Shown piece after piece: positions 29,422 through 52,622 of a stretch of DNA of 64,000 bases. Source of the stretch: a virus; IMG/VR virus record IMGVR_UViG_3300037882_002064, positions 1 through 64,000 of that record; one strand, 5' to 3'. The stretch's first letter is position 1; every line of letters starts with the position of its first letter. Made by a program: the position numbers and the translations under genes. The notes under the pieces are model-generated. The model was not told the origin of the DNA and made no database searches. It saw only the letters and a list, made by a program, of their open reading frames with translations.

Positions 29422-29422
29422 G

Positions 29423-31091: not shown

Positions 31092-34000
31092 ATGGCTGAT
31101 CGACCGGGGGTTAAGTGGAGCGATATAACCAATCTTGACAGTTTCAAAAATGATACGCCGGAAGGGCAAGAAAAGACCCGCACTGGCTTTTTTGAGCAGC
31201 GAGTCGCCCCAAATTTAGCGCCAGATCGTGTCGAAATCGAGCGCAAGAACTGGGATAGTGCCACCCTGCCGCGACCGGCAGCCCCGGCCCCCGGTGTGGC
31301 AGCGCAGAGCCAGAATACCAACCTGGCGGATCCGAAGGCGCTGGCCCGGCCCACCACTGTCAATCAAGCCACCCCACAGGGGCAGCAAGCCCCGGCGATC
31401 CAGCGACCCAAGGGTGAGGCCGGGTTTGTCAGTGGCGTGGCAGATTTTGGTCGTGCCGTGGTCAAAGGTGCAGTTGAGGATGTACCGAAGGCCATTGCAG
31501 GCGGCATCGAGGCATTCAATCGGCCGCAATTCGACGAGCAGGGCAGGAAGCTGGCCCCTAATGCGCTGGGCCGGGCCACCGATGCAATAAAAACCAAGGC
31601 CGAAGAACTCGGTGCAGGCTGGCAGCAGTCTGAGTACGGCAAATTCGAGCAGGAGAAGGACGCCTTCGATCTGCGCGGTGCAGCCTATGGCGGCGGCGAA
31701 AGCATGGCCATGAGCTTTGGCCCGGCCCTTGTCGGCGGCATACTCGGTGGACTACTGACCAAATCGGCTGCGGGTGCCGCCAAGGGTGCTGCAATAGCCC
31801 AAGCTGCCACGTTGCCCGTATTCTTTGGATCTGCCTACCAAGACACCTATTCTCGCGTGTACAAGGATCTCGGGGAGCAATACCCCGACCTGACCGAGGA
31901 ACAGGTTCACGACCAGGCTGTAAAGGCGGCGCTCGGGACTGGCTCCGTGGAAGCGGGTGGCGAGGCCATTGCTGACGTAGCCACCAATGCCCTGTTCAAG
32001 AACGCTCCGGGCTTCGTGAAGAAGAACGTGGCCAAGGCATTGACCCGAGGTTTCCAAGGCGCGGTGCCCCTGCTGAAAGGCATAGGGCGGGTGCTGGGCA
32101 CGGAAGTCGGGACAGAACTCTTGCAGGGTGCAGCACAGGCCGAGATCGAGCAGTCGGTAGGCGTGGGCGAGGGTGCCACATGGGAAAACCAGAAAGGCGT
32201 CATTGTCCCGACCATGATTATGGCGATGGTCGGCGGCGGTGCGGCGGCGGGTGTTAGCGCCAACCAGCGATACCGCACGGCCAAGCTACTGCAAAACCCC
32301 AAGATGCCCCCTGAAGAACGGCAGGCCGCAGTCAATGGCCTGGCCGGGATGCTCAATGAGTACGATCCCGAAGTGGCAAGAATGTTCCATGAGCATTCCT
32401 CGAAGCTGATTGCCCAAGGGAAGCCGGTCATTGTGCAGGACGACCGCTTCTACAGCGACCTGAAGCCGCTGGATCAGCGCGAGATCGACAAGGACATGGC
32501 GGCCGGTAACTTTACCGAAAAGCCCGCTGAACCAGAAACAGGTGCAAATACCCCCCCTAATGCACCAATATCGCCTTCCGCCACCGGCGCAGCCCAGCCC
32601 GGCGAGCCAATTACCACACCCCCTCCCACAGGGACAGTGGCGCAAAGTGAAATAAAAAATCCAGTTTCTGCCACCCCCGCCACTGGCGCAGCCCCCGAGG
32701 GCATGAGCCGCCCGCGCCGCCAAATACTGATGGCCGAGATCGATGCCGGCCTGAAAGTGGCTCGGGCAGAGCTGAAGGCCGCCCAGGCAGCGGGAGACTT
32801 TGAGGCAGCCACCGCGGCAGAGGAAGAAATACGGGCCATTGCGGTCAATATCAAGCGTGTCACCAAGGGTGAGAATCCCCTGCCAACCCCCCGCCAGCAG
32901 GCGCAGGGCCAGACTACCCCGACAAATTGGGCCAGCGGTGCCGCACAGGAAGGCCAGCCCAAGACGGTATTGCAGAACCGGGATCGGTCGACACCGGCCA
33001 TGATCGAGCAAATGACCAGTATTGCCGCCAATCCCGATCCAAAGCGGTTGGGTTTCTCCCGAGACTTTGGCAATGGCGCACCTGTCATTGAGCCTGGCGC
33101 ACTGATCCCTGACGAGAACATGGGCAAGACGGACACGGCCACTACCGCCGAGGGCCGCCAGATCCCCGTACAGTACGCCGTGGTTGAGGCAGAGCAGTTG
33201 CTTCCCAGTAACCGGGCCGATGGCACACCCATTGCCGAGTACGCGGGAGAGGGCGTTGAGGGGCTTTCCAGAGCGATTGCCGGCAATGGCCGGATAGCGG
33301 GCCTGCAACGTGCCCACGAATCAGGCACCGCTGCCGGATACATCGAGGGCATAGCCAATGATGAAGGCCTGCATGGCGTCCCAGCGGCCACGATCCGGGC
33401 CATGAAACAGCCAGTATTGGTGCGGATCATGCCGCAGGAAGAAGTAACCGATAACATTGGCGACGACTCCAACATAGCCACCAGCGCAGCACTACCACCC
33501 GGCGACCAGGCTCGAACGGACATTCGCCGCATCGATGCCACTGGCGTAGAGCTGAATGCCAAGGGTGAGCCGACGCCCAATGCCTTGATGCAGTTTGTGA
33601 ATGCAATGCCTGGCAGTGAGCGATCAGGCCTTATGACAGGCGACCGGCCAAGTACAGTCGCAGAAACGCGATTAAAAAATGCGATCTTTGCCCAAGCCTA
33701 CGAAAGCGACGAGCTTATCAAAATGTCCTCCGAGGCTCCGTCCCCAGATTCGGCCAACGTGATTGGCGGTATGCGGATCGCAGCGGGCAAGATGGCCCGG
33801 CTGGCAGGCGTGGATCCTGGCTATGATATTCGACCGATTGTGATCGAGGCCGCAGAAGCCGCAGTCAATGCCGCGCGGTCAGATCTGACGCTGGAAGAAT
33901 TCTTAAAGCAGCCCGACATGGGCCGCACCCCCTACGCCCAAGCCATTCTGGAAATGATGGCTACCAATATCCGATCAGCCAAGAAGATAGGCGATGCCCT

Positions 34001-37000
34001 GTCTAACCTGGCCGATGTGATGTACGACGAAGCCACCAAAGAGACTGACAGCTTGTTTGGTCAGGTGGATAAAACACCCGCCAACGAACTCTTGGAGAAG
34101 CTGTATGGCAAACAACCCACTGGAAAGAATGAAGGCGATGCTGTCCAAACCGGGCGGCCAGACAATGTTGAAGGAGGCGATGGAGGGGGAATTGTCGCCC
34201 CAGTCACAGAAGGTGCTGGAAAGCCTACGGACGCCGGGAAGCCTAAACCCAACTCCGCTCCAAAACCAAAGCCCAAGGGAGATACCCAAGAAGGGACTGC
34301 CGCGCCAAAGCCCGACCGCGCCCAAGAGCTAAGGGACAAGATCAAGGCCAAGCTGGAAGAAGAAAGGAAGAAGAACGAGCCGGCCACGCCAGAACCCACC
34401 CCCGAGCCTGCCGCCGCACCTCGAAGCCCTGACTACGGCAGCACCAATACGCTGGTATCCGCAGAGCGGGCCGAGGAACTACGCAAGAAGCTCCGGGCCA
34501 AGCTGAACGGCAGCCAGTTGAATGCTGGCATTGATCCTGAAATGCTGGCAATCGGTACAGAGCTGGCAGTGTTTCACATCGAGGCCGGTACGCGGAAATT
34601 CACTGCCTTTGCGAAGGCAATGGCCAATGACTTGGGCGCAACCCTTGCACAATTGAAGCCGTACTTGCGGAGCTGGTACAACGGCGCTCGGGATATGATG
34701 GAGGATAGTGGCCTCAATGTAGAGGGCATGGACTCGCCTGAACAGGTGAGCAAGCAGATCAGCGTTATGGGCAGCCCCAATGCTGCGGAATTCGAGCTTC
34801 CGATAGAAACCGAGGCAGAGCTATCAGCCAGGTTGAAAGCCGAGAAGGACAGGGCCGATCAGGACGCCAAGGCCCAGGCCAAGCAGGACAAGGAAGCGGC
34901 AGACGCCAAGCAGGCCGAGGACGACAAGAAGCGCGCCGACGAGACTTCCAAAGACTTCCAGCTTGGGCAGGATGCCGAGCAGCAAATGAGTGGGCAGGCC
35001 AACATTTTTGATATTCCTCCGGGACAGAACCCCGATCTAGTTAAAAAGATGAATGCCCAGCGAGAGAAGTTGGCCAAACTTCGTGATTTGTTCGCAAGTC
35101 GGGATCAGGATTTAGCAAAAATCCAGTTGGCGAAAATAGATGCTGTGCTGGCAGGACTTGATCGAGCAATTGAAACCGGCAAAGACCTGAACGATTTGCC
35201 TACCGACGAAGCCTTTGAGTCATTGATAAATCAAATGACAAAGAAAGCTCTCAAAATGCGAAGTCAGACAGATGCCGACAAGATGGCTGCTGAGATCGCA
35301 GACAAGGTTAAGGCCAAAGACGAGCGCCTGAAAACCGAAGGCGATATGGCCAAGCCATTTACTGACGTTTTCAGCATACCTGGCGTTGATAAAATGTCGG
35401 CTGGGAAACCGGCTAAGTGGTGGATCGAGATAGCCAACTCAGGCATTGACTGGGCACCAGCAGTTGCCTACGCAGAGAAGGCGCGTAAGGCCCTGAATGA
35501 GCGTGGCGTCTATGACAGCTCGCAGGCCAGCAGGGTAATGGCTGTTCCAGAGGCAGAGCTTATGCCAATGGGCCGGGTATCTGGCACCATCGAGCGGCTG
35601 GCGCGGGATCTGGCCAGTTTCATTCGAGAGGATGGCCGCCAAGACGCTGATTCCCGATTGGAGCTTATCAAGTCCAATAGCGCCATATTGGGCGTTGATC
35701 CGTCACCTGTGATTGACCCGACCGAAGCCAAGGAGCCAGTCAAATCCAATGCCCCCGAGCATCGCGCTGTAGGCGTTGACGACCGCGAGCTGGGCCAGAT
35801 CGTTAAAGAATTCAATTCCGCGCAGGCGCAAGGGCAAGAGATACATCACCTATTCGACGCGCCGGCCAAGAAGGAAATCGTGCGCCTGGCCGACAAGGTG
35901 AAGGTCTACCATGCCGAACATGGGTGGATGAAGCCTGCCGATGCCAAGAAGAAAATCGAGGAATGGAAGGCAAATGCCAAGGCGCAAGGTAAGCGTGGTG
36001 GCGGTCGTGTCGAGAATTCCCAAAAAGTTGTGCTGTCATTCTTTGATCTGACCGGCAAATGGTCGCAGCCGTGGGAGGAAGCCGGGTATCAAGTTTGGCG
36101 CTTCGACATTCAGAACGATGAAGAAATGGGCGATGTGAACAACTTTTCTGCCGAATTCTTTGGCGACTGGTTTGGCGACTTTGATGGCAATGACGTTTAC
36201 GCGATCCTCGCGGCCTGCCCCTGCACGGACTTTGCCTCGTCTGGCGCGCGACACTTTGCGGCCAAGGATGAGGATGGGCGCACGGTTGCGTCTGTCAAAC
36301 TGGTACACCAAACACTTGCCGCCATCGAGTATTTCAAGCCATCCGTGTGGGCTATCGAAAACCCGGTAGGTCGCATTGAGTCACTGGGCGGTCTGCCACC
36401 CTGGCGCTTGGCATTCGACCCCAACCACTTGGGCGAAACTTACACCAAGAAAACCCTGATATGGGGCCGGTTCAATGCTGATCTACCTATTGCACCAGTG
36501 GATCCAGTGGAAGCATCGAAGATGCACAGCCAGTATGGCGGCAGCTCTATCGCCACCAAGAACGCTCGCAGCGCCACACCCGAAGGATTCTCTTACGGCT
36601 TCTTTGCGGCCAACAACGCTATCGACAACCCTGTTATGGCGCTGGCCAACAAGTTTGACCGGCTGGATCGTGATCTGATTGGAAGGGCCTTGTCGGTGGG
36701 CGTCACCGAAGAAGAAATCACCAGTGCAGTAGAAGATTTCTACTACATGGATCTGGACGACGATGCGGCCAACGCAGCGATCCAAGAGTTGATCGATGAT
36801 ACCGGGCCTGCTGCTGCCATTGACGCGGCTGCCCACGAAGCGGCTACCAGTCCGAACAACGATCTGCCACAGCCAACCGATGCACAGAAAGAGGCCGGGA
36901 ACTACAAGAAGGGCCATATCAGTGTTCAGGGTATCGACATAACGGTAGAAAATCCGAAGGGATCGGAGCGCACCGGGACTGATGAGGACGGCACCGCTTG

Positions 37001-40000
37001 GTCACACACCATGCAAAGCCACTATGGCTACATCAAGCGCACCGAAGGCGCTGATGGCGACCATATCGACGTATTCGTGGGGCAGAACCCCGAAAGCGAT
37101 CAGGTGTATGTCGTTGACCAAGTAAACGGCAAAGGTGCGTTTGACGAACACAAGGTCATGCTCGGGTTTGATACTGAGAAAGAAGCAATCGCCGCCTATA
37201 AGGAAAATTACGATCCGAAGTGGACAGTCGGCCCTGTCTCTACTATGTCGATGGACGTATTCAAAGGCTGGCTCGAAGATGCTGACCTGACAAAACCCAT
37301 ATCACCGAGCGGTATCCGGGTACTCAAGGCAGACAAGGCGTTTCAGGAGAACCAGAAAAAGAACGAACTTGCCATTTACGAACAGCCGGGCATGACACTG
37401 CGGCACGAAGGCAAGAGCTATCCGGTTGACAGCCTGGCTGATGCGGCGACCAAGTACCGCGCAGTCATTGATCGACTGGCCGGGGAAGGAGCCGGTGGCG
37501 CAAGTCAGATGGGCGCAAGCCCGACAATCCATGATGCCAGCGGCAAGCAGATCGCCAGGATCAGCTATAACGGTCGCATTTGGGACATGAACGACAAGGA
37601 GCTACCTGGCCCGTATGCGCGGGATGTGAAGGTAGAGCAAATTACTGCCGATGATGTTTCTGACGAGCAGGCGCTGGCCGATGCGCTCAAGGATAACGAC
37701 GATCAATCCATCGAGGAAATGCACGAATGGATCTCCGCAGCCTACGGTGAGGACAAGATACCGGCGCTGCTGGCCCACCATATCAACCTGGCCATAGCGG
37801 CCGGCGTACCAGAATTCAAGATCGCGCTAGAAATCAACCGATTGCCACCCGGCAAGAAAGACGACTTTGCCGTAATGACGGCAATCATGCGCCTGAAGAA
37901 CGAATACAAAAAAGAGGAAGAAACGAATGAGCCGACCAGTGAACCCGGCAGCGATACTGAGACTGGCCAAACAGGTCAGAAAACAGGAGGCCGCACAAAG
38001 CCAACGCGAAAATCAGCCTCCTACACCTTCACCCGAGAAGATCAAAGGATCGTCAGACGGCGGCCCAACAAAAAGCCGTGGGTTAATAAGAATTCAGCCA
38101 AGCAAGCACTGAGGGAGCTTGGGCTTGAAAAGACGCACCGCGTCAACGGGTACTCCAATTCCGGCCCCTTCGGTCGAGAGTGGTGGATTGAGCCAAAATA
38201 CAGCGCCTTCAAATTCCCGTACACCCAGGATCAGTACCGGAATGCGAAGGACGCAAAAACGGAGGACTATCCCTACGTTATAGAACCGCGATGGGACTCC
38301 ATGAGCGCAACGGCTCGCGGGAATCTTGAGAACGAACTGCGCCGCGGTTTACGCCAGTGGGATGCTCGATTCACAAAAGCGGAAGGCGTATTGCGCTTTG
38401 GTAGCGAAGATCAGCGTCAGTTTTTCATTGATAACGCAATGAACCAGGCCAACCCTTTTTCGATGCTCTATACCAAGAGCATTCTGCAAGAAGGCCAGAA
38501 GAAAGCCGAAGTAACTGAGCCAGCGACTGACGATAAGAAAACGCGCGCGCAAGAACTTCGCGCCAAGATCAAGCAAGGCCTGAAGGAAGCTGGTGGCGGC
38601 AAAGAGGCGCTGACAGACTTCGGTGAGAAGCTGGGCGGCTCTCGGGCCGACAAGGCGGCGGCGCGCAAGGCTAAGCTGATGGCGCTGGCCAGCATGGACG
38701 AAAATGAGATCCAGACAAAATCACTCAGCGATCTATGGCCGAAAGATGCCTACATGCAGATCGAGGACGATTTCATATCGGCATTCAACTATGTGGCCAG
38801 GAAGTCTGTGCCCAAGAAGCCGCGCAAAAGCTGGAAGCTCAGGCAGTGGGCGAAGGATATTCAATCTGCCGCAGCATTGTCTGACCTATTGGCTGAAGCT
38901 GCTGAAAGCGGAGGTTACGAGCAATTCCGCGAGAGGATGCTGGCCAACGACGAAACGGCGGCCATGCTCCACGAAGTAGACTTGCTGACTAACCTTCCTC
39001 GGAAAGACTGGGAGCGCATTGGTGTGGCCTATTTCAGGTACGATGCCTACACCTACAAGCGCGATGAAAATGGGGATGTGGAGAAGATCCCGAAGCCGTA
39101 TGCCGGGATGTACATCGATGGCAAATACCATGAATTCAAAGAAACTAAGGATGTAGTTGCTGACCACCTCCCTAGAATTCAGGAGCTGCTTGGGGTCGAA
39201 GTCACTCCGAAATCCAAGAAGAAAGAGCTGACCCGGTACGACTTCGAGGTGCGTGGTCGCGCAGGAAAATGGAATATCTATCGCAAGGGAGACAGTGAGT
39301 ATCGGAAGCTGCTGCCAGAAGATTGGACTGACAGCAAAGAACTGCAAGCCTGGAAGGTCGATAACATCCCAGCACTGGTTGAAGCATGGGAGAAAATCAA
39401 AGAACGGGACAATGTTGGCAAGGGCGATATGCGCCGGGACTCCAACAAACCGCGTACCGGGAAGGATCACCGCGGCGGCAAGGACATTGACGCCAAGGAC
39501 TTCCATGAAACCTTCGGCTTCCGTGGCGGCGAGTTTGGGAAGTGGGTCAAGCAGGGCACCGGGGCGAAGGATCGGCAGGGCCTGCTGAACCAGTCCTTTG
39601 ATGCGCTGATGGATCTGGCCGACATTCTCGGTGTGCCACCTATGGCGCTATCCCTGAACGGATCGCTGGGCATTGGTTTGGGATCGCGTGGAAGCGGCAA
39701 GGCCTCTGCCCACTTCGAGCCAGACTTCATTGTAATCAACCTGACCAAGACCAAGGGTGCAGGATCCCTGGCGCACGAATGGTTCCATGCGGCTGACAAC
39801 TACTTTGCTCGGGCGCGTGGCGAGCAAGGCCAGTACATCACCAAGAACCCAATGTCCCGCGAAGTCGGCAAAGCGGGCGTCCGAGAAGAAGTGGAGCGCG
39901 CCTTCCAGAATCTTCGCAATGTGCTGAACCAATCGCCCATGTATGCGCGGGCCAAGAAGATCGACAAGAATAAGCCTGATGGCTACTGGTCGCGGATCAT

Positions 40001-46000: not shown

Positions 46001-49000
46001 TCCCAAAGCATCGAAGGCGGTGAAGGCGTCAGAAACGATTGCCCGGCTATCCGAGAGCGATCCGAAGCACACCATTGTACAGCGCGCCATTCAGATCGTG
46101 CGGCAGATCCTTCGCAAGCTGGGCTTTACTGTTCAGTTTTCCAATAACGACATTATCGAAGCCTTCCGCAGGGCCAAGCTGGCGCTGCAAGAGGGCCAGC
46201 AGTACGCCGGACAGGGAGAGAGGGGCGGTCTGTTCAGGATCAAAGACGATAACGGCGCAGGATCACCGATCTGGCGCGCAGCGAAGAACAAAGGCCTCGA
46301 TCTGTCCAAGGATGCCAGGCTGGCCCGCGCGCGCGACATGGGCTTTGATACCGATACAGTCTGGTATCACGGCACCACCGACAACATTGCGGCCTTCGAG
46401 GACAACCCGAGCCGCAGCTTTGGTATTCATGTTGGCACCAAGTTGCAGGCAAATAACCGGCTGTTGGATCGCGCCCGGCACGACCGAGCGCACACCGGGT
46501 CAACCGTGCCGATCACGCGCAGCCAGGTAGCGGCTCCACAAGATGGTGCAAATGTGATTCCAGTTTACATAGCAGCCAAGAAACTCCTGAAGTTGCACGA
46601 TGTTGGCCCTTGGCATCACGGCCCGACCGTGGCCGATGCGGTACTTAAATCGCAATTCGCGCCAGAGTCTTTGCGTGAGGCGGCCAAGAAAATCAAGGAA
46701 GAACTGGCTGAAGCTGGGAAGGCTATGGCGAAAGGCAAGGAACTGGACGCCAAAGGTATGCCAACCGCAGCCTATAAGAAACTTCGTGGCACCCACGGTA
46801 TGCTGACAGAAATGGCGGCGGGAAGATTGCGCGATGCGATGATCGCCGCTGGCTACGATGGCATTCAGTACGGCAACCGCTTCGAGGGCAAGAAGCAAGG
46901 TACTGTTGGCGCAGACTCGATCATTGTGTTCGATCCTGCCAAAGTGCGCTCGATCAATGCGGTGTTCGATCCCGAAGCGGCCCGTAGCAGCAGCATACTG
47001 TTCCGCGTCGAAGATGCCGACGAATTCAAGCTGACTAGCAGCCTTGCGCCTGAATTCTATTCAGAGCTGACCGCGGCGGCCCGCCAGTTGAAGCAGGAAA
47101 AAGGCACTCCCGAGCAAATGCTGAACGCCATCAAGAAAATGGGTGGTGTGAAGGCAGAGGAACTTGAATGGTCTGGCCTCGAAGAATACATGGCCGGGAT
47201 CAGCGGCACGATCACCAAGCAAGAGATCGTGGATTATCTGGACGCCAATGGTGTGCAGGTTGTAACAATTTCCAAGGAAACGCCAGAAGCATGGGTATCC
47301 CGAGCCAATGCTGTGCTGGCAGGAACCGGCTATACCGCAGAAATGGACGACTACGATAACGAAAATGTCGTCTTTATGGATAGGGACGACGAATCCTGGG
47401 AAATGGGAGACTTGCCGCCCGAGTTGCAGACAAAACTTGATGCCATTGTTCCCAAAGGCGCGGCCGGGTCGGTCAAGTTCAGCGAGCATGTTTTGCCCGG
47501 AGGTACTAACTACCGGGAAGTGCTGCTGACGTTGCCAGCGAAGCCCCAGCGCAATTCCGTAGAATGGGCGACTGAAGCTCGCCGCCGTTATGCCGAGAAA
47601 GATATTACTCGTCTAAGCGAAGATCAGAAAAAAATTATTGATCGTGCTGTTGGCGGGGTGAGTTACAACAAAAGCCACTGGGAAGAACCCAACGTCATTG
47701 CCCATGTTCGTATGAATGACCGTACCGATCCTGAAGGCAATCGAGTGTTGTTCCTTGAGGAAATACAAAGTGACTGGCACCAGGCAGGCAGAAAAGAGGG
47801 CTATTTAGGAACCCCTACGGGAAACACTCTATGGGATGAAGCCGATGCCGCAGAAGAAGCCACTCGCCCCGATGCTATCGACGAGATTGAATCGTATGGC
47901 CGGCTGGGCTTTGATCGGCTTCCTATGGCGATGGGTGCCATTCTTGACCATGAGGACTGGGCCGAGCGATGGGATGTGAAAGAGCGGATTGCCATTGAGG
48001 CTATCAACAGGTGGCGCACCGCCAAACTCGCGCAGGTAGAAGCATCTAAGGATAGGGCCATATTTGAGGCCCGAGTGCCAAACGCACCCTTCAAAAATAA
48101 CGGGTGGGTTGAGCTGGCTGTTAAAAAGATATTGCGCCTGGCCGCCGAGGGTGGCTATGACCGCGTGGCATGGACGACCGGGGAGCAGCAAAACACCCGA
48201 TACAACCTGTCTACCCAGGTTAAGTCTATAGAATGGAGCTGGGATCAGGACAGGGACAAGGGCTACCCTGACAGGAAAACTATTTGGATCGAGCCTGCGG
48301 GTCGGGATTTCAACAACACTAGAATTGTCGTTGACGACAAGGGCGTTGTACTCCGATCAAATGACGAAGGCGGCATGGATGGCTATTACGATGGTAAGCG
48401 CCTCGATGCGATAGTTGGGAAAGGAATGGCCGATAAAATTCTTGAGAATGCCAATGGCAATCTTGAAGGTGACGGCTTGAACATTGGCGGCGAAGGCATG
48501 AAGGGCTTTTACGACAATATCGTGCCGTCTACTTTCAAAAAAGTGGCCCGAAAACTTGATAAAAGCGCCAAAATAGAAGTGACGCCTATTGGTGACATAC
48601 AGACCAATATCAATGGTTCGGTTCAGATTGATAATTTCCGCAAAGCTCAAAGTCTGGTGACGGCGCTTCGAGCGCGAGGCATAAGCGCAGCGAGAGCAAA
48701 TACGGACAGCCTTCCCGGTGACGAGGAAGGCGCTGTCATTATGCGATTTTATAACCTGACTTCAAATGAGGTAGAGGACGTTTGGAATCTGGTCGAGCTT
48801 GATTTTGGATGGAGATATAACGCCGAACCCGAACGAGAAATAATGGGCGGCCAGATGAGTATCGCGCTTACTCCAACCATGCAGGACTTGGCCATCAGTA
48901 AGGGTTTCGGCCTGTTCCGGGTCGAGGACGAGAACAAGAACCCTGGCACCCACAATGGCAAGCCATTCTGGATCGGCATGTACAACCCGCTCGATGGCTG

Positions 49001-52000
49001 GATTGAGGAAGCGCACACCTACGAGGAAGCCCAGGCAAATGACTTCCACCATTCTTTCACCTTCAGCCAGACGGCGCTGGATCACGAAAAGGCTGGCGAC
49101 TGGCGCATATTCTGGATCAACCGGGACAATGAGATTGAAGTCGAGTGGCGCGATCCGCGTCCCGAGGCGGCCCGGACACTGGCCCAGTTGCGGCAGAACG
49201 CCGGGCTTAATACCTCTGGTGCTTTCCGTGTGGAAGGTGAGGAAGCGGCTGAAGCGGGTGGACTGACCGCTGCCGAGATAAAAGCCTGGCGTCAGGCCCA
49301 CAAGGTCACGCAGCGCCAGGGCCGGGTGCCCGAGATCCAGCAGGCCGCCAAAGACCTGAAAGCGGGCAACCTAAAGCCAGCGGCTTACCGGGCGCTGGTG
49401 AAGAAGTACCAGCCGATCATGCCGATCCGCACCGTGCCGAGACTGACCACTGTGCGGGAGATTGCCGCGGCCGTGGCTACCGACAAGGTGCAGAAGCATG
49501 GCATCTTGGGTTACAACAAGGATATTGCGGCCGGCACTCGGGTAGCGACCAGGCTCGACATTCCGGCCTATGACTTCTACGACACTTGGGTAGTCACGAT
49601 CCATGACGGCTCGAAGCGGGGCGGGAATGCGATGGCCTATGGCGATCATGCTGCCATGAAAAACGTCGAATTCGTGACCAACCCCAAGGCAGCACTGGAT
49701 ATTGCCACCGGAGACAGCTCCAAAGCGCCCTTTGCGCGCATTCACGGCGATTGGGTGCCCATGAGTGGGGAGCAGGCGCACGGTATGGCAGAGCGCGCCC
49801 TGACGGCTCCCGGCTGGACTCAGGTGGGTATGAACCCCTTCCGGCACAGCTACTTCTACGATAAAGCCACCGGGGAGCCAGTGGTATCGGCAGAACAGGT
49901 GATCCAGATCGGCCCGCTGGTCATGGCCCGCAATGTGGTGAAGGGAGATCCTGACAGCTTCAAGGTTGGCAATACGGGAGTAGCATTCCGGGTCGAGGAC
50001 GAGCTGGACACTGACGACTGGGGTGTTGCCCCCAGGAAACCCTGGCGCGCGGTGCTGCGGGACATGATCGATCGGCAGCGATTCCAGTACCAAGACAAGC
50101 TGATCGACCTCAAGCGCATCCAGGAGAACGCTGACCCGGCTGATTCGGCCAATGCCTACCAGAAGGCCAGCATTTGGGAAGGTAAGGCTGGGGAGCGCCT
50201 GAACGACTTTGACGAGCAGCGTATACAGCCCCTGTTGCAGGCAATTTCTGACTCGGGGGTGGAGTGGGACACTGTTGGCAAGTGGCTGGTGGCCCGCCAT
50301 GCCCATGAGGCTAACGCCTACCTGGCTGAGATCAATCCCGACATGGAGGGCGAGGATCGTTACCGGCTGTCCGGTATGTCCAATGAGGAAGCCGACGAGA
50401 TCCTGGCCGAGAATGCCAACCACCGTGGCCTGTACCTTGTGGGCGACCTCGTAGACCAGATCAACAAAGAGCGCGTGGATCTGCTGATAGCCGATGGCTT
50501 GATTTCCGAGGGGGAGGCCGCAGCGTGGCGGGGCCGGTATCAATTCTATGTCCCGCTGAAGCGCGAGGAAGCCGAGGACGCCAATCACCTACCTGGCCGC
50601 GGGCAGGGCTTCAATATCAAGGGCAAAGAATCCAAGATGCGAACCGGATCGGCGCACTGGACGCCGGGCAAGATCGTGGCCAACGTCATTGCCCAGCACC
50701 AGGCCAGCATCATCCGGGCCGAGAAGAACAAGGTGGGACAGGCGCTGCTGAGCTTCGTGCGCCAGCATCCTGACCCGACATTCTGGACTATCGATACTGA
50801 GCGCAAAATCAAGGTCGTGCGGAACGGCAAGGTAGTCACTGTCACCAAGGGCGTAGACGAGCCACATGAATTGTCCGTGAAGATCAATGGTGTGAGGCAT
50901 TTTATCGCCTTCAACACCGGCAATGAGCGGGCCATGCGCTTGGTCACTGGCATGAAGAACTTGCAGGCCGCTGAAATGGGCACTGTGATGCGGGCAATGG
51001 CTACGGCCACCCGCTATCTGTCTACGATCAATACAAGCTGGAACCCGGAATTCATCATCAGCAACTTTGCTCGGGATGTACAGACGGCAGCCTATAACCT
51101 GTCAGACACCGAGATTGTCTCGATGCGCGGCAAGGTACTGAAAGACATACCCAGGGCTATCGGTGGGATCAAGCGGGCGCTGTTCAATGGCGGAGAAGCT
51201 CTCGATCCAGAGGACGAATGGGTACAGCTTTGGGAGGATTTCAGGAAGCACGGCGGCAGGACTGGTTGGATTGACATTCACGCTGATGTGTTGAAGCAGG
51301 AAACGAACCTCAAGGAAATGGTCGAGCGACTGGATCAGGGCAGGCCTTCCCGCAAGTGGTTCACTCGATTCCTGAAAAGCGTCGACAGCATGAACACTGT
51401 GATCGAGAACGGAGTGCGCCTTGCAGCCTATGCCAATGCCATCAAGCCAGTATCTGAGGGCGGCGGCGGGCTATCCAAAGACAAGGCCGCGGCGATGGCC
51501 AAGGATCTGACGGTCAACTTCAACAGGAAGGGCAACCGCGGGGCGCAGGTAAACGCGCTTTATATGTTCTTCAATGCCAGCGTACAGGGCAACATGCGCT
51601 TGATTCAGGCAATGGTGAACAGCAAGCAGGGCCGCACCCTGGCGCTGGCTACCGTGGGCCTGGCTATCGGACTGGACATACTGAACCGGGCCATGTCCGG
51701 GGACGACGACGACGACGAGAATATCTACGACTCGATGCCGGATTTTGTGAAGGATCACAACCTGATAATCATGGGCGAGAAAGCGCCTATCGTGAAGATC
51801 CCGCTGCCGTGGGGCTATAACGTGCTGCACATTATTGGCCAGTCCATAGGCCAGGCTATCAGCGGCGAACGATTCAGCCCGCTCGATGCGGCCAGCCGGG
51901 TAGCACTGGGCCTGATGAACTCCTTCAATCCTATTGGCGGGGGCACCCTGGCACAAACCATATCCCCAACCATTATTGACCCGATCACCATGATTGCCGA

Positions 52001-52622
52001 AAACAAGAACTTCATGGGCACGGATCTGAAGCCGGCACACACCTACGATGCGCGCCTGCCCAAGCCAGAGTACCTGATGCACTGGTCAACGTCCCGAGAG
52101 GCCAGCCAGTTCATTACCAAGTGGCTGAATGATGTTTCCGGGGGGAATGAGGTGCGCCCAGGCCTTGTGGACTGGTCGCCGGAATGGGTGGATCTGATCT
52201 ATGACACCCTGACAGGTGGCACCGGCAGGACTGCGGCCATGACCCTCGATGTGGCTCAGAAACTGGTTACGGGCGAGGAATTCCCGCCTGACAGTGTGCC
52301 CTTTGTTCGCAAGGTGACTGGTTTCAACAGCGAACACCAGATCAAGGGCCGGTACTACGAATGGAGCAAAGGCGTGGCGTATGCCAAGTCTGAGGCCAAA
52401 TTCCTGAAAGGCGACGAGCTGATCGCGGCGCAGAAGAACCCGGAGTACCAGTTAGTCGGAGCCTACACCGCTGCCGAGAAGCAATTGACCGGGATGCGGA
52501 AGATTCGCCGGGAAATGGTGAAGAACGATGCCAAGCAGGAAAACATTGATGCGCTCGATGCCCGGATCAGGATCGTCATGGCCCGGTTCAATCAGCAGTA
52601 CGCGGAAAAGGTGCTTCAGTGA
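31092..52622 (+). CDS. Giant polyvalent protein (DarB-like, multi-enzyme), 7176 residues
   Basis: One uninterrupted frame of roughly 0.79 MDa. In order: a hydrophobic Gly/Ala region (residues 192-396, internal-virion-like); a DdrB-type ParB-like domain (about 632-980); a 69-residue module (1146-1214) repeated at 3091-3159; a C5-cytosine methyltransferase-like domain (1646-1843); a pyrophosphatase-like domain (1940-2070); a metallopeptidase domain with HEWFH (2895); an N6-adenine methyltransferase (LEPTAGNGM 3315, NPPF 3374); a Strawberry-notch-type helicase (Walker A Lys3744, DESH 3863); HEAIGH (4926); an ADP-ribosyltransferase-like domain (WYHGT 5091); and an LPD38-like C-terminus (6307-7176). 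Seven FR-containing motifs separate the later domains. Polyvalent proteins of this kind (DarB, DdrB) are packaged and ejected to protect incoming DNA against restriction and other defences; that role is inferred here. Whether it acts whole or is cleaved is unknown. Confidence 0.92.
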   Translation: MADRPGVKWSDITNLDSFKNDTPEGQEKTRTGFFEQRVAPNLAPDRVEIERKNWDSATLPRPAAPAPGVAAQSQNTNLADPKALARPTTVNQATPQGQQAPAIQRPKGEAGFVSGVADFGRAVVKGAVEDVPKAIAGGIEAFNRPQFDEQGRKLAPNALGRATDAIKTKAEELGAGWQQSEYGKFEQEKDAFDLRGAAYGGGESMAMSFGPALVGGILGGLLTKSAAGAAKGAAIAQAATLPVFFGSAYQDTYSRVYKDLGEQYPDLTEEQVHDQAVKAALGTGSVEAGGEAIADVATNALFKNAPGFVKKNVAKALTRGFQGAVPLLKGIGRVLGTEVGTELLQGAAQAEIEQSVGVGEGATWENQKGVIVPTMIMAMVGGGAAAGVSANQRYRTAKLLQNPKMPPEERQAAVNGLAGMLNEYDPEVARMFHEHSSKLIAQGKPVIVQDDRFYSDLKPLDQREIDKDMAAGNFTEKPAEPETGANTPPNAPISPSATGAAQPGEPITTPPPTGTVAQSEIKNPVSATPATGAAPEGMSRPRRQILMAEIDAGLKVARAELKAAQAAGDFEAATAAEEEIRAIAVNIKRVTKGENPLPTPRQQAQGQTTPTNWASGAAQEGQPKTVLQNRDRSTPAMIEQMTSIAANPDPKRLGFSRDFGNGAPVIEPGALIPDENMGKTDTATTAEGRQIPVQYAVVEAEQLLPSNRADGTPIAEYAGEGVEGLSRAIAGNGRIAGLQRAHESGTAAGYIEGIANDEGLHGVPAATIRAMKQPVLVRIMPQEEVTDNIGDDSNIATSAALPPGDQARTDIRRIDATGVELNAKGEPTPNALMQFVNAMPGSERSGLMTGDRPSTVAETRLKNAIFAQAYESDELIKMSSEAPSPDSANVIGGMRIAAGKMARLAGVDPGYDIRPIVIEAAEAAVNAARSDLTLEEFLKQPDMGRTPYAQAILEMMATNIRSAKKIGDALSNLADVMYDEATKETDSLFGQVDKTPANELLEKLYGKQPTGKNEGDAVQTGRPDNVEGGDGGGIVAPVTEGAGKPTDAGKPKPNSAPKPKPKGDTQEGTAAPKPDRAQELRDKIKAKLEEERKKNEPATPEPTPEPAAAPRSPDYGSTNTLVSAERAEELRKKLRAKLNGSQLNAGIDPEMLAIGTELAVFHIEAGTRKFTAFAKAMANDLGATLAQLKPYLRSWYNGARDMMEDSGLNVEGMDSPEQVSKQISVMGSPNAAEFELPIETEAELSARLKAEKDRADQDAKAQAKQDKEAADAKQAEDDKKRADETSKDFQLGQDAEQQMSGQANIFDIPPGQNPDLVKKMNAQREKLAKLRDLFASRDQDLAKIQLAKIDAVLAGLDRAIETGKDLNDLPTDEAFESLINQMTKKALKMRSQTDADKMAAEIADKVKAKDERLKTEGDMAKPFTDVFSIPGVDKMSAGKPAKWWIEIANSGIDWAPAVAYAEKARKALNERGVYDSSQASRVMAVPEAELMPMGRVSGTIERLARDLASFIREDGRQDADSRLELIKSNSAILGVDPSPVIDPTEAKEPVKSNAPEHRAVGVDDRELGQIVKEFNSAQAQGQEIHHLFDAPAKKEIVRLADKVKVYHAEHGWMKPADAKKKIEEWKANAKAQGKRGGGRVENSQKVVLSFFDLTGKWSQPWEEAGYQVWRFDIQNDEEMGDVNNFSAEFFGDWFGDFDGNDVYAILAACPCTDFASSGARHFAAKDEDGRTVASVKLVHQTLAAIEYFKPSVWAIENPVGRIESLGGLPPWRLAFDPNHLGETYTKKTLIWGRFNADLPIAPVDPVEASKMHSQYGGSSIATKNARSATPEGFSYGFFAANNAIDNPVMALANKFDRLDRDLIGRALSVGVTEEEITSAVEDFYYMDLDDDAANAAIQELIDDTGPAAAIDAAAHEAATSPNNDLPQPTDAQKEAGNYKKGHISVQGIDITVENPKGSERTGTDEDGTAWSHTMQSHYGYIKRTEGADGDHIDVFVGQNPESDQVYVVDQVNGKGAFDEHKVMLGFDTEKEAIAAYKENYDPKWTVGPVSTMSMDVFKGWLEDADLTKPISPSGIRVLKADKAFQENQKKNELAIYEQPGMTLRHEGKSYPVDSLADAATKYRAVIDRLAGEGAGGASQMGASPTIHDASGKQIARISYNGRIWDMNDKELPGPYARDVKVEQITADDVSDEQALADALKDNDDQSIEEMHEWISAAYGEDKIPALLAHHINLAIAAGVPEFKIALEINRLPPGKKDDFAVMTAIMRLKNEYKKEEETNEPTSEPGSDTETGQTGQKTGGRTKPTRKSASYTFTREDQRIVRRRPNKKPWVNKNSAKQALRELGLEKTHRVNGYSNSGPFGREWWIEPKYSAFKFPYTQDQYRNAKDAKTEDYPYVIEPRWDSMSATARGNLENELRRGLRQWDARFTKAEGVLRFGSEDQRQFFIDNAMNQANPFSMLYTKSILQEGQKKAEVTEPATDDKKTRAQELRAKIKQGLKEAGGGKEALTDFGEKLGGSRADKAAARKAKLMALASMDENEIQTKSLSDLWPKDAYMQIEDDFISAFNYVARKSVPKKPRKSWKLRQWAKDIQSAAALSDLLAEAAESGGYEQFRERMLANDETAAMLHEVDLLTNLPRKDWERIGVAYFRYDAYTYKRDENGDVEKIPKPYAGMYIDGKYHEFKETKDVVADHLPRIQELLGVEVTPKSKKKELTRYDFEVRGRAGKWNIYRKGDSEYRKLLPEDWTDSKELQAWKVDNIPALVEAWEKIKERDNVGKGDMRRDSNKPRTGKDHRGGKDIDAKDFHETFGFRGGEFGKWVKQGTGAKDRQGLLNQSFDALMDLADILGVPPMALSLNGSLGIGLGSRGSGKASAHFEPDFIVINLTKTKGAGSLAHEWFHAADNYFARARGEQGQYITKNPMSREVGKAGVREEVERAFQNLRNVLNQSPMYARAKKIDKNKPDGYWSRIIERAARSFEVYIIEKMAQGGYDNDFLANVRSIAEWTKAPDRYPYPKRIEVRPPQASELPDEMAPITEAFDTLFETIEVKDTVLGKDEFGKDRLGKAMFRAEDDFGSIKDVPGLFMVQGDGAKIDPEMLAMGAELAMIHMEGGGKPFPEFVQLMAEDLGVTVDQIKPYLRGWYNGARDMMEDSGLEVAGMDDSNAVREAMKNLGQPQAEKPAPAETAETAEKPAAKDVRDYLFDNLAEITDNRKLKSLMATFHGTPAADVTEQQMKEAQEAVEVALVKQARDTIAKGRKHGLSEKAIYDRLVDQYNAQPNLNMRSSTSMENQAYSTPSPLAFIASRYAGINAQSKVLEPTAGNGMLLIEATPGNVIANELNNDRADNLKFQGYKVTQHDASKVQLPAQSVDAFVTNPPFGRLRDENGNNYDEKVDGYTIKSIDQLIVAKQLDAMKDSGGKAAIIIGADKVAGEISPSDRVFFNWLYGHYNVVDHFEVAGELYQRQGAGWPVRVIIVEGRQKSSTKSPISGSIERLDNWNQIYDRYAESLGATNPRPDTGSGIGTEPVTRPNTGTGQPQVTGGEQTGTPNGSGGRPGGGSGNTGGSARPVSGGNGSGNKPGTGNGDDGRYQPVTTGEPGGVGLEGIEQPEALPLGTGSDTGSQQPVIEQPDGQPGAQPTVKAPRVAGPQEDGSSFQTPYPGRSKSPNESALVPNNMAKAIGTALETIEEAVGKSLDEYVMEKLQYDTIEEMSEVLMGLQIDAIAATIYNFENKGKGIIIADQTGVGKGRQAAAIIRYAKIIGKTPIFATVADNLYSDMWDDLHEIGETNIRPLVINNNVPIKSESFKGQKALKPAERRKALDTILKTGSLPANHDMLFMTYHQIKTDNEQRKVIDALKHNAIFVLDESHNVSGPRSVDKKVNGKKVTRVTGAGFMFEQIADAPVLYLSATYAKRADNMAIYYRTDLMDAVDSPEDLIAAVAAGGVPVQQIMSNMLTESGQLFRREKSFEGISIPTVIDTANREKHVKTSDAVNVGLQSILEADRMFNDVFFPIYLKEQEKKGGSAFMGGNKLNQNITHTGFNSVVHNKVRQMLLALKTATAVDRAIQAHKDGKKPVIALESTFGSFLSSYVKQHDLKAGDPVDIDYRDILREALTGSRRITVEDEFGEKQYIQIQMHELDPATRLMYQNAEKAITALDIADLPISPIDYMINGMEKAGIKVKEITGRELRLDYSGGGVPTLVKVPSNESSKKRAKVDDFNRGDLDALILNVSGSTGLSIHASKKDTVKDKKPRKMIVAQAMQDINILIQMLGRINRTGQVVLPEYEMLTADLPAEKRPAAVVARKMASLNANTSSNDESDTTIKAPDMMNKYGDQIVNSYLQENLDLAWLLHITPSTGDGAAAIDLALKATGRLAVLPVAVQEAVYEELERAYADEIEYLNATGQNDLIAQTVDLDARIKDSRIIYQGKAPDTIFGGNTTLHKIDAKYQGKPPTARDVEHALDKSRGETSTGILDKKNADKSYEKQLEQRFLDAQADLVKHNEMSDQVKTDELDAYAIKGAKLAERLDAARGAANAYVESKRLATNEIEKFTVGKQFRLDLSDEIVIGVVVSVKDSHADGKGNPWSLSKTRITFMVNSGIRQVELPLSKLQSEGKILIEKLRGFGKDGLDQIFTPHDTARREQRHVATGNLISGMANLDGGRIVNFTDNKGETYQGILMPRKFGRNGEYETAGGQNTIPVRDPAVVKKLLRDGGSALSGAGGVFSGNQAVRLIHNQGQWVVQVPKSNKDAIAKSVKFDEAIRKIVGDFYGSGNVMTAKNNITVADARLDALVDRLMELTPLYVMKSMEAQAIKAGNPPPSTATNTFDKDKKGPAAPPSGAFRADEAPRSGARVTRDGLERLVKSMGAQWQIPMTVMDSVKQLPSHVRGLLRDQGITGEVTGYYDRDNQHVYLIANGISSYQSGAVTLLHEAIGHLGIERVMGEDLDQFLKSVHDARNSDPAIAAAWAYAERNYPKASKAVKASETIARLSESDPKHTIVQRAIQIVRQILRKLGFTVQFSNNDIIEAFRRAKLALQEGQQYAGQGERGGLFRIKDDNGAGSPIWRAAKNKGLDLSKDARLARARDMGFDTDTVWYHGTTDNIAAFEDNPSRSFGIHVGTKLQANNRLLDRARHDRAHTGSTVPITRSQVAAPQDGANVIPVYIAAKKLLKLHDVGPWHHGPTVADAVLKSQFAPESLREAAKKIKEELAEAGKAMAKGKELDAKGMPTAAYKKLRGTHGMLTEMAAGRLRDAMIAAGYDGIQYGNRFEGKKQGTVGADSIIVFDPAKVRSINAVFDPEAARSSSILFRVEDADEFKLTSSLAPEFYSELTAAARQLKQEKGTPEQMLNAIKKMGGVKAEELEWSGLEEYMAGISGTITKQEIVDYLDANGVQVVTISKETPEAWVSRANAVLAGTGYTAEMDDYDNENVVFMDRDDESWEMGDLPPELQTKLDAIVPKGAAGSVKFSEHVLPGGTNYREVLLTLPAKPQRNSVEWATEARRRYAEKDITRLSEDQKKIIDRAVGGVSYNKSHWEEPNVIAHVRMNDRTDPEGNRVLFLEEIQSDWHQAGRKEGYLGTPTGNTLWDEADAAEEATRPDAIDEIESYGRLGFDRLPMAMGAILDHEDWAERWDVKERIAIEAINRWRTAKLAQVEASKDRAIFEARVPNAPFKNNGWVELAVKKILRLAAEGGYDRVAWTTGEQQNTRYNLSTQVKSIEWSWDQDRDKGYPDRKTIWIEPAGRDFNNTRIVVDDKGVVLRSNDEGGMDGYYDGKRLDAIVGKGMADKILENANGNLEGDGLNIGGEGMKGFYDNIVPSTFKKVARKLDKSAKIEVTPIGDIQTNINGSVQIDNFRKAQSLVTALRARGISAARANTDSLPGDEEGAVIMRFYNLTSNEVEDVWNLVELDFGWRYNAEPEREIMGGQMSIALTPTMQDLAISKGFGLFRVEDENKNPGTHNGKPFWIGMYNPLDGWIEEAHTYEEAQANDFHHSFTFSQTALDHEKAGDWRIFWINRDNEIEVEWRDPRPEAARTLAQLRQNAGLNTSGAFRVEGEEAAEAGGLTAAEIKAWRQAHKVTQRQGRVPEIQQAAKDLKAGNLKPAAYRALVKKYQPIMPIRTVPRLTTVREIAAAVATDKVQKHGILGYNKDIAAGTRVATRLDIPAYDFYDTWVVTIHDGSKRGGNAMAYGDHAAMKNVEFVTNPKAALDIATGDSSKAPFARIHGDWVPMSGEQAHGMAERALTAPGWTQVGMNPFRHSYFYDKATGEPVVSAEQVIQIGPLVMARNVVKGDPDSFKVGNTGVAFRVEDELDTDDWGVAPRKPWRAVLRDMIDRQRFQYQDKLIDLKRIQENADPADSANAYQKASIWEGKAGERLNDFDEQRIQPLLQAISDSGVEWDTVGKWLVARHAHEANAYLAEINPDMEGEDRYRLSGMSNEEADEILAENANHRGLYLVGDLVDQINKERVDLLIADGLISEGEAAAWRGRYQFYVPLKREEAEDANHLPGRGQGFNIKGKESKMRTGSAHWTPGKIVANVIAQHQASIIRAEKNKVGQALLSFVRQHPDPTFWTIDTERKIKVVRNGKVVTVTKGVDEPHELSVKINGVRHFIAFNTGNERAMRLVTGMKNLQAAEMGTVMRAMATATRYLSTINTSWNPEFIISNFARDVQTAAYNLSDTEIVSMRGKVLKDIPRAIGGIKRALFNGGEALDPEDEWVQLWEDFRKHGGRTGWIDIHADVLKQETNLKEMVERLDQGRPSRKWFTRFLKSVDSMNTVIENGVRLAAYANAIKPVSEGGGGLSKDKAAAMAKDLTVNFNRKGNRGAQVNALYMFFNASVQGNMRLIQAMVNSKQGRTLALATVGLAIGLDILNRAMSGDDDDDENIYDSMPDFVKDHNLIIMGEKAPIVKIPLPWGYNVLHIIGQSIGQAISGERFSPLDAASRVALGLMNSFNPIGGGTLAQTISPTIIDPITMIAENKNFMGTDLKPAHTYDARLPKPEYLMHWSTSREASQFITKWLNDVSGGNEVRPGLVDWSPEWVDLIYDTLTGGTGRTAAMTLDVAQKLVTGEEFPPDSVPFVRKVTGFNSEHQIKGRYYEWSKGVAYAKSEAKFLKGDELIAAQKNPEYQLVGAYTAAEKQLTGMRKIRREMVKNDAKQENIDALDARIRIVMARFNQQYAEKVLQ
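32985..34035 (+). other. Giant protein: DdrB-like ParB-superfamily domain
   Basis: Residues of about 632-980 contain the ParB-type nucleotide-binding pattern SNRADGTPIAEY, LSRAIAGNGRIAGLQRAHE and a following helical region, as in the ParB-like domains placed early in phage and plasmid polyvalent proteins. Confidence 0.75.
34105..34332 (+). CDS. Possible nested 75-codon gene inside the first linker of the giant gene
   Basis: In the +1 frame relative to the giant gene, an ATG follows GGAG by seven bases and opens a 75-codon frame with ordinary, mostly helical composition at its start (MANNPLERMKAMLSKPGG). The giant frame here is a Gly/Pro/Lys linker with little sequence constraint. Expression is unproven; it could be a chance frame with a lucky SD. 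Confidence 0.3.
   Translation: MANNPLERMKAMLSKPGGQTMLKEAMEGELSPQSQKVLESLRTPGSLNPTPLQNQSPREIPKKGLPRQSPTAPKS
34527..34733 (+). repeat. 69-residue module, copy 1
   Basis: Encodes IDPEMLAIGTELAVFHIEAG through KPYLRSWYNGARDMMEDSG. Forty-six of 69 residues are identical to copy 2 at 40362-40568. Function unknown; similar segments occur in DarB-like proteins to my recollection. Confidence 0.85.
36027..36620 (+). other. Giant protein: C5-cytosine methyltransferase-like domain
   Basis: Residues 1646-1843. SAM-binding start SFFDLTGKWSQPWEEAGY resembles motif I of Dcm enzymes. ACPCTDFASSG holds the Pro-Cys of motif IV (Cys1711), and AIENPVGR corresponds to motif VI with ENP in place of ENV. I do not see a clear motif VIII (QxRxR) or a target-recognition domain, so activity and specificity are uncertain. 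Confidence 0.65.
36912..37300 (+). other. Giant protein: inorganic-pyrophosphatase-like (InPase) domain
   Basis: Residues of about 1940-2070: HISVQGIDITVENPKGS, MQSHYGYIKRT and GADGDHIDVFVG, the last matching the Asp-rich metal-binding motif of family I pyrophosphatases. This domain is known in phage polyvalent proteins, where it may remove pyrophosphate or act on nucleotide substrates. Confidence 0.65.
37927..38112 (+). CDS. Possible nested 61-codon gene inside the giant gene
   Basis: A +1-frame ATG eight bases after GAGGA opens 61 codons (MSRPVNPAAILRLAKQVRKQ at the start), basic and helical. The overlapping giant frame is a Thr/Glu/Gly linker. SD quality is excellent, but coding is unproven. 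Confidence 0.3.
   Translation: MSRPVNPAAILRLAKQVRKQEAAQSQRENQPPTPSPEKIKGSSDGGPTKSRGLIRIQPSKH
39444..40190 (+). other. Giant protein: LPD1-like metallopeptidase domain
   Basis: Residues of about 2785-3033. SLAHEWFHAADNYFARARGE contains HExxH (His2895, Glu2896, His2899), and the preceding FHETFGFRGGEFGKWV and following EEVERAFQNLRNVL match a domain that recurs in polyvalent proteins. Predicted zinc peptidase. Confidence 0.75.
40362..40568 (+). repeat. 69-residue module, copy 2
   Basis: Encodes IDPEMLAMGAELAMIHMEGG through KPYLRGWYNGARDMMEDSG. It lies just after the first FRAED motif and before the adenine methyltransferase domain. Confidence 0.85.
40920..41530 (+). other. Giant protein: N6-adenine methyltransferase domain
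   Basis: Residues of about 3277-3480. Motif X-like AYSTPSPLAFIASRYAG, motif I VLEPTAGNGMLLIEA (3315) and motif IV VTNPPFGRL (Asn3374-Phe3377) identify a Class I SAM-dependent DNA adenine methyltransferase of the gamma-like order (I before IV). This is the usual neighbour of the Strawberry-notch helicase in DarB-like proteins. Confidence 0.85.
41590..42003 (+). CDS. Possible nested 137-codon gene inside the Gly-rich linker
   Basis: In the +1 frame, from an ATG preceded by a weak GGAA, runs a protein with normal helical composition (VLEILAAVPDLYLAAMDQ; LSQLVSQVEWDLRG). The giant frame here is a Gly/Thr/Pro/Asn linker. Part of the apparent quality may be a by-product of Gly codons read one base out of phase, so confidence is low. 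Confidence 0.3.
   Translation: MTDTQKVWVPRTPDLTQDQGSVLSLSRAPTQEPDSLKLRVESKLVRLMDQEDDPEAVLEILAAVPDLYLAAMDQETSRERAMAMMEDTSLSQLVSQVEWDLRGSSNLKPYPWELEVIRDHSSQSLSSLMASLARSLQ
42090..44160 (+). other. Giant protein: Strawberry-notch-type superfamily 2 helicase
   Basis: Residues of about 3667-4357. Walker A ADQTGVGKGRQ (Lys3744), motif II VLDESHN (3863), motif III LSATYAKR (3905) and motif VI QMLGRINRTGQ (Arg4270) are complete. Together with the methyltransferase just upstream this resembles type I/III restriction-like or DISARM-like modules reused by phages. Confidence 0.85.
45630..46180 (+). other. Giant protein: second metallopeptidase-like segment
   Basis: Residues of about 4847-5030, right after the AFRADE motif. 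TLLHEAIGHLGIERVMG contains HEAIGH (His4926). The second His is one residue further than in HExxH, a pattern (HExxGHxG) I associate with domains of phage polyvalent and MuF proteins. Peptidase activity is a guess. Confidence 0.5.
46280..46990 (+). other. Giant protein: ADP-ribosyltransferase-like domain
   Basis: Residues of about 5064-5300, bounded by LFRIKD and LFRVED. VWYHGTTDNIAAF (5090 onward) is the first beta-strand motif of polyvalent ART domains, and IIVFDPAKVRSINAVFDP is their usual C-terminal end. Predicted NAD-dependent modification of a host protein or nucleic acid. Confidence 0.65.
47040..48900 (+). other. Giant protein: EEIQSDWHQ-type domain
   Basis: Residues of about 5317-5937 between two LFRVED motifs. 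Conserved-looking blocks: LEWSGLEEYM, VLFLEEIQSDWHQAGR, GWVELAVKKILRLAAEGGYD and VAWTTGEQQ. I recall the same blocks in giant proteins of other phages but cannot name an activity. Confidence 0.5.
50010..52619 (+). other. Giant protein: LPD38-like C-terminal domain
   Basis: Residues 6307-7176 after the last AFRVED motif. NPEFIISNFARDVQTAAYN and LYMFFNASVQGNMRLI, then an acidic DDDDDEN and repeated amphipathic or hydrophobic segments, match the LPD38 domain that ends many polyvalent proteins. Possibly the part that anchors the protein in the virion or membrane. Confidence 0.65.

Follow-up and report, generated by a model that had tools for sequence, protein, structure and literature searches.

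Injection of phage polyvalent proteins has been predicted from sequence, and for most of them support is lacking as to which parts travel or work. DarB of phage P1 resides in the head and protects DNA (PMC5512222, PMC9024508), and gp69 of phage JC1, a homologue of the protein described here, has been found in virions by mass spectrometry (PMC9144972). The virion RNA polymerase (vRNAP) of phage N4 is ejected and is thought to unfold (PMC12633501). N4-like vRNAPs lack cysteine, which has been ascribed to passage through the tail or periplasm (PMC2784036, PMC3715699, PMC3915230).

We analysed a window of 64,000 nucleotides, positions 1 to 64,000 of the IMG/VR virus record IMGVR_UViG_3300037882_002064 (65,422 bases). 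One third is occupied by a single open reading frame (ORF) of 7,176 codons, which starts with ATG, translates without an internal stop and specifies a product of about 786 kDa (Table 1). The probability of a stop-free run of this length under the base composition is about 1e-118, and the codon-position GC bias is coding-like in all 300-codon bins. The preliminary description had reported this 21.5-kb stop-free frame of 7176 codons, and the ORF, its coding bias and the giant single ORFs at the equivalent genome position in relatives agree with it. The giant ORF comes from an assembled IMG/VR contig, and a lost stop or base errors might have fused separate genes into one. A sequence-level check of the coding signal over the whole ORF revealed neither a frameshift nor a lost stop. 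In addition, the coding signal and the exclusion of cysteine are uniform along the entire frame, the giant single ORFs of relatives reach 7,099 residues and GenBank phages carry versions of 2,789–5,553 residues, which makes such an artefact highly implausible.

The giant gene is the last in a plus-strand run of late virion genes that encode the terminase, the portal (PHROG 156, 8e-164), the major head protein (PHROG 334, 3e-123) and structural proteins. On its 3' side lies a minus-strand block with SSB, a Bet/RecT-like annealing protein and an exonuclease. The portal is nearest to those of E. coli short-tailed phages. The C-terminal module of the giant is matched about equally well (32%) by Methanosarcina virus MetMV and by E. 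coli short-tailed phages, with further matches in Bcep22-like phages, Vibrio podophages and Ruegeria phage 45A6. Directly upstream of the giant, at 26546-31081, are three genes of 324, 633 and 552 codons whose products contain zero, one and zero cysteines, respectively; on position and composition these are candidates for smaller ejection proteins. Two other late genes (805 and 553 residues, window 21821-25900) gave no PHROG match and possibly encode receptor-binding appendages.

Table 1. Features of the giant gene and its surroundings (window positions; aa, residues of the giant).
Feature	Position	Strand	Basis or remark
Candidate smaller ejection protein, 633 aa, 1 Cys	27520..29421	+	PHROG 10969; role suggested by position and composition
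Candidate smaller ejection protein, 552 aa, 0 Cys	29423..31081	+	Role suggested by position and composition
Giant polyvalent virion/ejection protein (putative)	31092..52622	+	7,176 aa; ORF, translation, coding bias
N-terminal hydrophobic region, aa 190-395	31659..32276	+	Alignable to Methanosarcina virus MetMV
DdrB-like ParB domain, aa 626-779	32967..33428	+	Pfam PF18763 ddrB-ParB, E=8e-17
Duplicated module copy 1, aa 1115-1219	34434..34748	+	Internal duplication
C5-cytosine methyltransferase domain, aa 1640-1846	36009..36629	+	PHROG 757, 9e-40; motifs; 36 related loci
The only two cysteines, C1709 and C1711, in AACPCTDFA	36216..36224	+	Sequence
InPase domain, aa 1928-2064	36873..37283	+	Pfam PF18823, E=7e-56
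Zincin region (HEWFH, aa 2895), LPD5, LPD1, CLCA_X-like match, aa 2505-3059	38604..40268	+	Profile matches, motif
Junction motif 1, MFRAED, aa 3066	40287..40304	+	
Duplicated module copy 2, aa 3092-3165	40365..40586	+	Internal duplication
N6-adenine methyltransferase, aa 3237-3480	40800..41531	+	NPPF, LEPTAGNG; PHROG 6263, 4e-9
Strawberry-notch type SF2 helicase, aa 3650-4350	42039..44141	+	Pfam AAA_34 4e-21, Helicase_C_4 6e-20; Walker A, DESH, motif VI
Junction motif 2, AFRADE, aa 4837	45600..45617	+	
Second zincin, HEXXXH type (HEAIGH, aa 4926), aa 4870-5040	45699..46211	+	Alignment to about 20 relatives; motif
Junction motif 3, LFRIKD, aa 5047	46230..46247	+	
ART-PolyVal-like domain, aa 5080-5292	46329..46967	+	Sub-threshold Pfam score
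Unnamed module A (EEIQSDW), aa 5303-5835	46998..48596	+	Alignment to relatives; no Pfam match
Junction motif 4, LFRVED, aa 5303	46998..47015	+	
Junction motif 5, LFRVED, aa 5941	48912..48929	+	
Junction motif 6, AFRVEG, aa 6044	49221..49238	+	
Unnamed module B, aa 6067-6300	49290..49991	+	Alignment to relatives; weak Phage_L5_gp82
Junction motif 7, AFRVED, aa 6298	49983..50000	+	
Conserved C-terminal module with LPD38, aa 6311-7176	50022..52619	+	LPD38, 1e-36

Domains were assigned with Pfam, PHROGs and NCBIfam profiles and by inspection of active-site motifs, which are intact in the recovered enzyme domains. The chain joins several unrelated enzymatic domains, as is characteristic of phage polyvalent proteins (typically more than 2,000 residues). 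It contains the phage-specific polyvalent domains DdrB-ParB, InPase and LPD38, together with a DarB-like dyad in which an NPP(Y/F) adenine methyltransferase is fused to a SWI2/SNF2-like SF2 helicase. The description of the gene as polyvalent is thus borne out, and the ParB-like, pyrophosphatase-like, peptidase, N6-methyltransferase, SF2 helicase and LPD38-like domains named beforehand were recovered by profiles or motifs. So was the C5-methyltransferase (C5-MTase)-like domain: its Pfam score lies under the cut-off (E=0.015) and there was no PDB sequence match, but PHROG 757 (DNA methyltransferase) matches well and both the catalytic Pro-Cys of motif IV (PCTDF) and the EN of motif VI (ENP) are present. 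For the proposed ADP-ribosyltransferase-like domain a resemblance stands and family membership does not, the score of 28.2 bits being below the ART-PolyVal gathering score of 31.2.

The second zincin, an internal duplication, modules A and B and the exclusion of cysteine are additions to the preliminary description. The duplicated module (IDPEMLA...WYNGARDMMEDSGL) carries no Pfam name and is common to JC1, BS-TP4 and many C5-carrying giants. The hydrophobic region near the N-terminus is a possible membrane or ejection part. AlphaFold confidence for modules A and B was low (pLDDT 53 and 56) and Foldseek gave no match at E<=0.001; the assignment of a function to either from predicted structure was dropped on these grounds.

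Giants of the relatives span a wide range of lengths: 2,789 residues in PhiR5_2, 3,002 in MetMV, 3,066 in Vibrio 252E42.2, 3,912 in 45A6, 4,515 in JC1, 5,391 in BS-TP4 and 5,553 in BKO1-TP3. When the C-terminus of the giant was used as a single-sequence query, the scan of IMG/VR gave zero matches. An alignment query did give matches, and the IMG/VR scans added giants of 5,000-7,099 residues, including examples of 7,099, 6,841 and 6,822. The present protein is the longest that we encountered and stands at the end of a continuum. Its length, previously called exceptional, is extreme without standing alone, and a plasmid polyvalent protein of 12,242 residues is cited by Iyer et al. (PMC5512222); we rejected size as a headline claim on account of that example and the 7,099-residue relative. 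The chain is a mosaic in which separate parts match separate giants.

The composition of the chain is a further feature. The giant contains two cysteines where about 71 would be expected from the other genes of the same phage (average 0.995%; Poisson P ~3e-28). Since the same DNA read in its other five frames contains 181-401 cysteine codons, base composition is not the cause. Set beside the cysteine-free N4 vRNAP, the giant has these two cysteines, both in the C5-MTase motif, and no others in the chain. Across 102 giants (354,856 residues), mutually related and hence not independent trials, there are 97 cysteines (0.027%) and 70 chains have none; the value for 377 neighbouring ORFs (at least 200 residues, same strand, starts set by a Shine-Dalgarno rule in a crude ORF calling) is 0.805%. 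Ejected proteins of other phages behave similarly: N4 gp50, gp51 and gp52, T7 gp15 and gp16 and P22 gp7, gp16 and gp20 have no cysteine and T7 gp14 has one. P1 DarB, a component of the head that is believed to enter the cell, has nine cysteines, and exclusion is therefore not needed for every polyvalent protein.

Giants resembling those of Bacteroides phages (hosts assigned by similarity only) contain 0.148% cysteine versus 0.022% in the remaining giants, and the archaeal MetMV giant has three cysteines in 3,002 residues. The DsbA/DsbB pathway is often missing from obligate anaerobes, and the higher values fit a weaker constraint under a less oxidising envelope. At one locus (L086) the longest ORF, of 1,782 residues, has eight clustered cysteines, including a radical-SAM-like PCSYCYVEQ, unlike other giants, and may be another gene. 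Apart from the N4-like vRNAP precedent, our literature search found no report of cysteine loss in polyvalent proteins; extension of the rule to polyvalent giants, with an active-site exception, is new as far as that search shows.

The exception was followed through the family. An IMG/VR scan with an alignment of the C5-MTases of the giant and of locus L058 gave 36 loci, and the Pro-Cys pair is kept in all 36. The residue before the proline is mostly cysteine and in some cases threonine or asparagine, so that only C1711 is indispensable. Fourteen full-length C5-carrying giants (77,646 residues) have 24 cysteines in the motif and three elsewhere; two giants (G023 and G041) truncated by the limits of the retrieved stretch were left uncounted. 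A single non-motif cysteine occurs in 34 embedded modules (12,054 residues, mutually related and not independent trials), whereas seven free-standing phage C5-MTases (1,619 residues) have 30 by a similar rule, or about 28 once two whose motif lacks the proline are set aside. A free-standing gene for a C5-MTase of 382 residues (L193:6001-7125) is 66% identical to the module of the giant, nests within the clade of giant-embedded modules and has four extra cysteines; judged by its sequence, it is one natural case of cysteine regained after a module left a giant chain. Retention of the active-site cysteine, and of cysteine in that motif alone, in an otherwise purged chain argues that the C5-MTase would be selected to work after delivery, on arrival in the cell.

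Two further loci deserve mention. At L211 (G037) the C5-MTase module is split across two frames and represents a pseudogene or a sequencing error. One contig of 61,595 bases carries an end-open C5-carrying giant ORF (L019/L171) and, at the opposite end, a start-open giant ORF (L182). Probably both belong to a single gene that the contig ends of a circularly permuted genome have divided, and its true length would then exceed 4,411 residues. The C5-MTase module was not found in the text of the founding survey of polyvalent proteins (PMC5512222), and as a recurrent polyvalent domain it is new as far as our literature search shows.

From the ORF, its domains, its late-gene position and its cysteine pattern, we infer packaging, unfolded threading and refolding of the giant, as well as the substrates of its individual modules. 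Most probably it belongs to a podovirus allied to the Bcep22-like and E. coli short-tailed phages and serves as a polyvalent ejection protein that is packaged, threaded unfolded, refolded and active on arrival. It would be produced alongside the late virion proteins and stored in the head. On ejection it would leave with the DNA as a single unfolded chain, cross the tail and the oxidising periplasm, and refold in the cytoplasm. Its enzymes would act immediately, within the first minutes, on the host and on the DNA as it enters: the N6-methyltransferase/helicase and the C5-MTase would mark DNA, and the ParB-type nuclease, the InPase, the ADP-ribosyltransferase-like domain and the zincins would act on host or phage targets. 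Transit would purge cysteine from the chain and spare the active-site motif of the C5-MTase. As the exclusion extends along the whole chain, all modules probably travel. The preliminary description had proposed a single delivered package; whole-chain exclusion and the mass spectrometry of the homologue JC1 gp69 (PMC9144972) support this more strongly than the letters alone had let its author know. The action against several host defences that it also proposed is suggested by domain identity.

Against this reading, some non-ejected virion proteins lack cysteine by chance, and 38% of the neighbouring ORFs are cysteine-free. Another explanation places the selection in the virion. Virions persist outside cells in oxidising surroundings, and loss of cysteine might protect the stored protein from oxidation rather than ease its passage through the tail and periplasm. 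The portal, the major head protein and further structural proteins of this phage retain cysteine, however, as do in part the structural proteins of N4, T7 and P22, and depletion is strongest in known ejected proteins. We regard storage as an improbable alternative; oxidation in the virion could still be a contributor.

Whether the delivered chain stays whole is a separate matter. A motif, FR[VAI][EDK][DEG], occurs seven times in the giant (Table 1); among 1,000 shuffles it occurred not at all in 864, once in 126 and twice in 10. All seven copies lie outside the homology-defined modules, for which the chance probability of about 1e-6 is indicative only, as motif and borders were chosen from the same sequence. 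In relatives the tripeptide FSR is found at equivalent places, for example behind the zincin in L023 and L039 and around module B in L077 and L089. It is enriched family-wide (108 versus 42.8) and near alignment breakpoints (19.4% versus 4.0%, rank 8 of 2,518 tripeptides). At L077 and L089, six or more FSRxQ-like repeats are present within one giant chain. Our literature search found no report of the FSR motif, and the repeated junction motif is new as far as it shows. Three readings are conceivable: that the motif marks processing sites, that it acts as a linker or that it is a seam left by recombination.

It is quite possible that the junctions are non-proteolytic linkers or seams left by the shuffling of modules between giants. 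Alignments among giants are mosaic, and in L077 and L089 modules A and B stand in the opposite order to that in the giant, with FSR motifs flanking B. On the other hand, the seven copies use differing codons, which points to maintenance at the protein level and not as shared DNA. Alternatively, and more doubtfully, the giant could be a polyprotein precursor, cut at the motif by a prohead protease or by its own zincins, before packaging or after entry, to give separate effectors. The number of copies and their placement between modules would suit such a role, as would the FSR enrichment in relatives and near breakpoints and the two zincins within the chain; P1 DdrB is processed, and processing by zincins was proposed by Iyer et al. 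(PMC5512222). Nevertheless, several giants have no junction motif, N4 vRNAP is packaged unprocessed and the portal contains AFRVEQ, the one close FRVED look-alike among the other proteins of the window. FRVED as a general phage protease site was rejected on the strength of that single look-alike and the absence of the motif from some giants. Cleavage after delivery would be compatible with our preferred reading of ejection as one chain. A broader and unlikely proposal is a class of thiol-free ejected polyproteins whose modules all cross an oxidising envelope unfolded, which keep cysteine for catalysis only and are cut by their embedded zincins, once refolded, at FRVED/FSR junctions that double as shuffling boundaries. 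If this were true, the enzyme required to function in the new host could be read from the retained cysteine.

Exclusion of cysteine thus offers a readout from sequence alone. Shared by every module, it indicates that the whole chain probably travels, and its sole exception would mark an enzyme needed in active form after delivery. Whether giant effectors are threaded unfolded, and whether disulfide formation in the host limits their ejection, become testable questions, and phage genomes could be screened for ejected proteins simply by this property.

Of the described systems, N4 vRNAP is giant, ejected and cysteine-free, and is the known precedent for the cysteine rule, but it is an RNA polymerase. 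P1 DarB, the DNA-protecting head protein, shares the adenine methyltransferase-helicase; it has 2,255 residues and nine cysteines and belongs to a contractile-tailed phage. JC1 gp69 (4,515 residues), a DarB-type protein from a Bcep22-like Burkholderia phage, is a cysteine-free virion protein by mass spectrometry with the same genome position and a homologous C-terminus, although that C-terminus is about 25% identical and the protein is shorter with another domain set. The giant of Bacteroides phage BS-TP4 (5,391 residues) has the duplicated module, InPase, methyltransferase-helicase, second zincin and C-terminus in common with ours, but at 23-50% identity, in a changed order and with four cysteines. 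The structural protein of the isolated Pseudomonas phage 8P (5,145 residues) has this C5-MTase module built into a giant chain and keeps PPCTDF, with one other cysteine; it differs in that the module is 48-52% identical and the architecture is another. With the phage-type polyvalent proteins of Iyer et al. (2017; PMC5512222) the giant shares DdrB-ParB, InPase, zincins, the adenine methyltransferase-helicase dyad, an ART-like domain and LPD38; the C5-MTase and any discussion of cysteine are absent from the text of that survey, and the length of the giant lies near the upper end.
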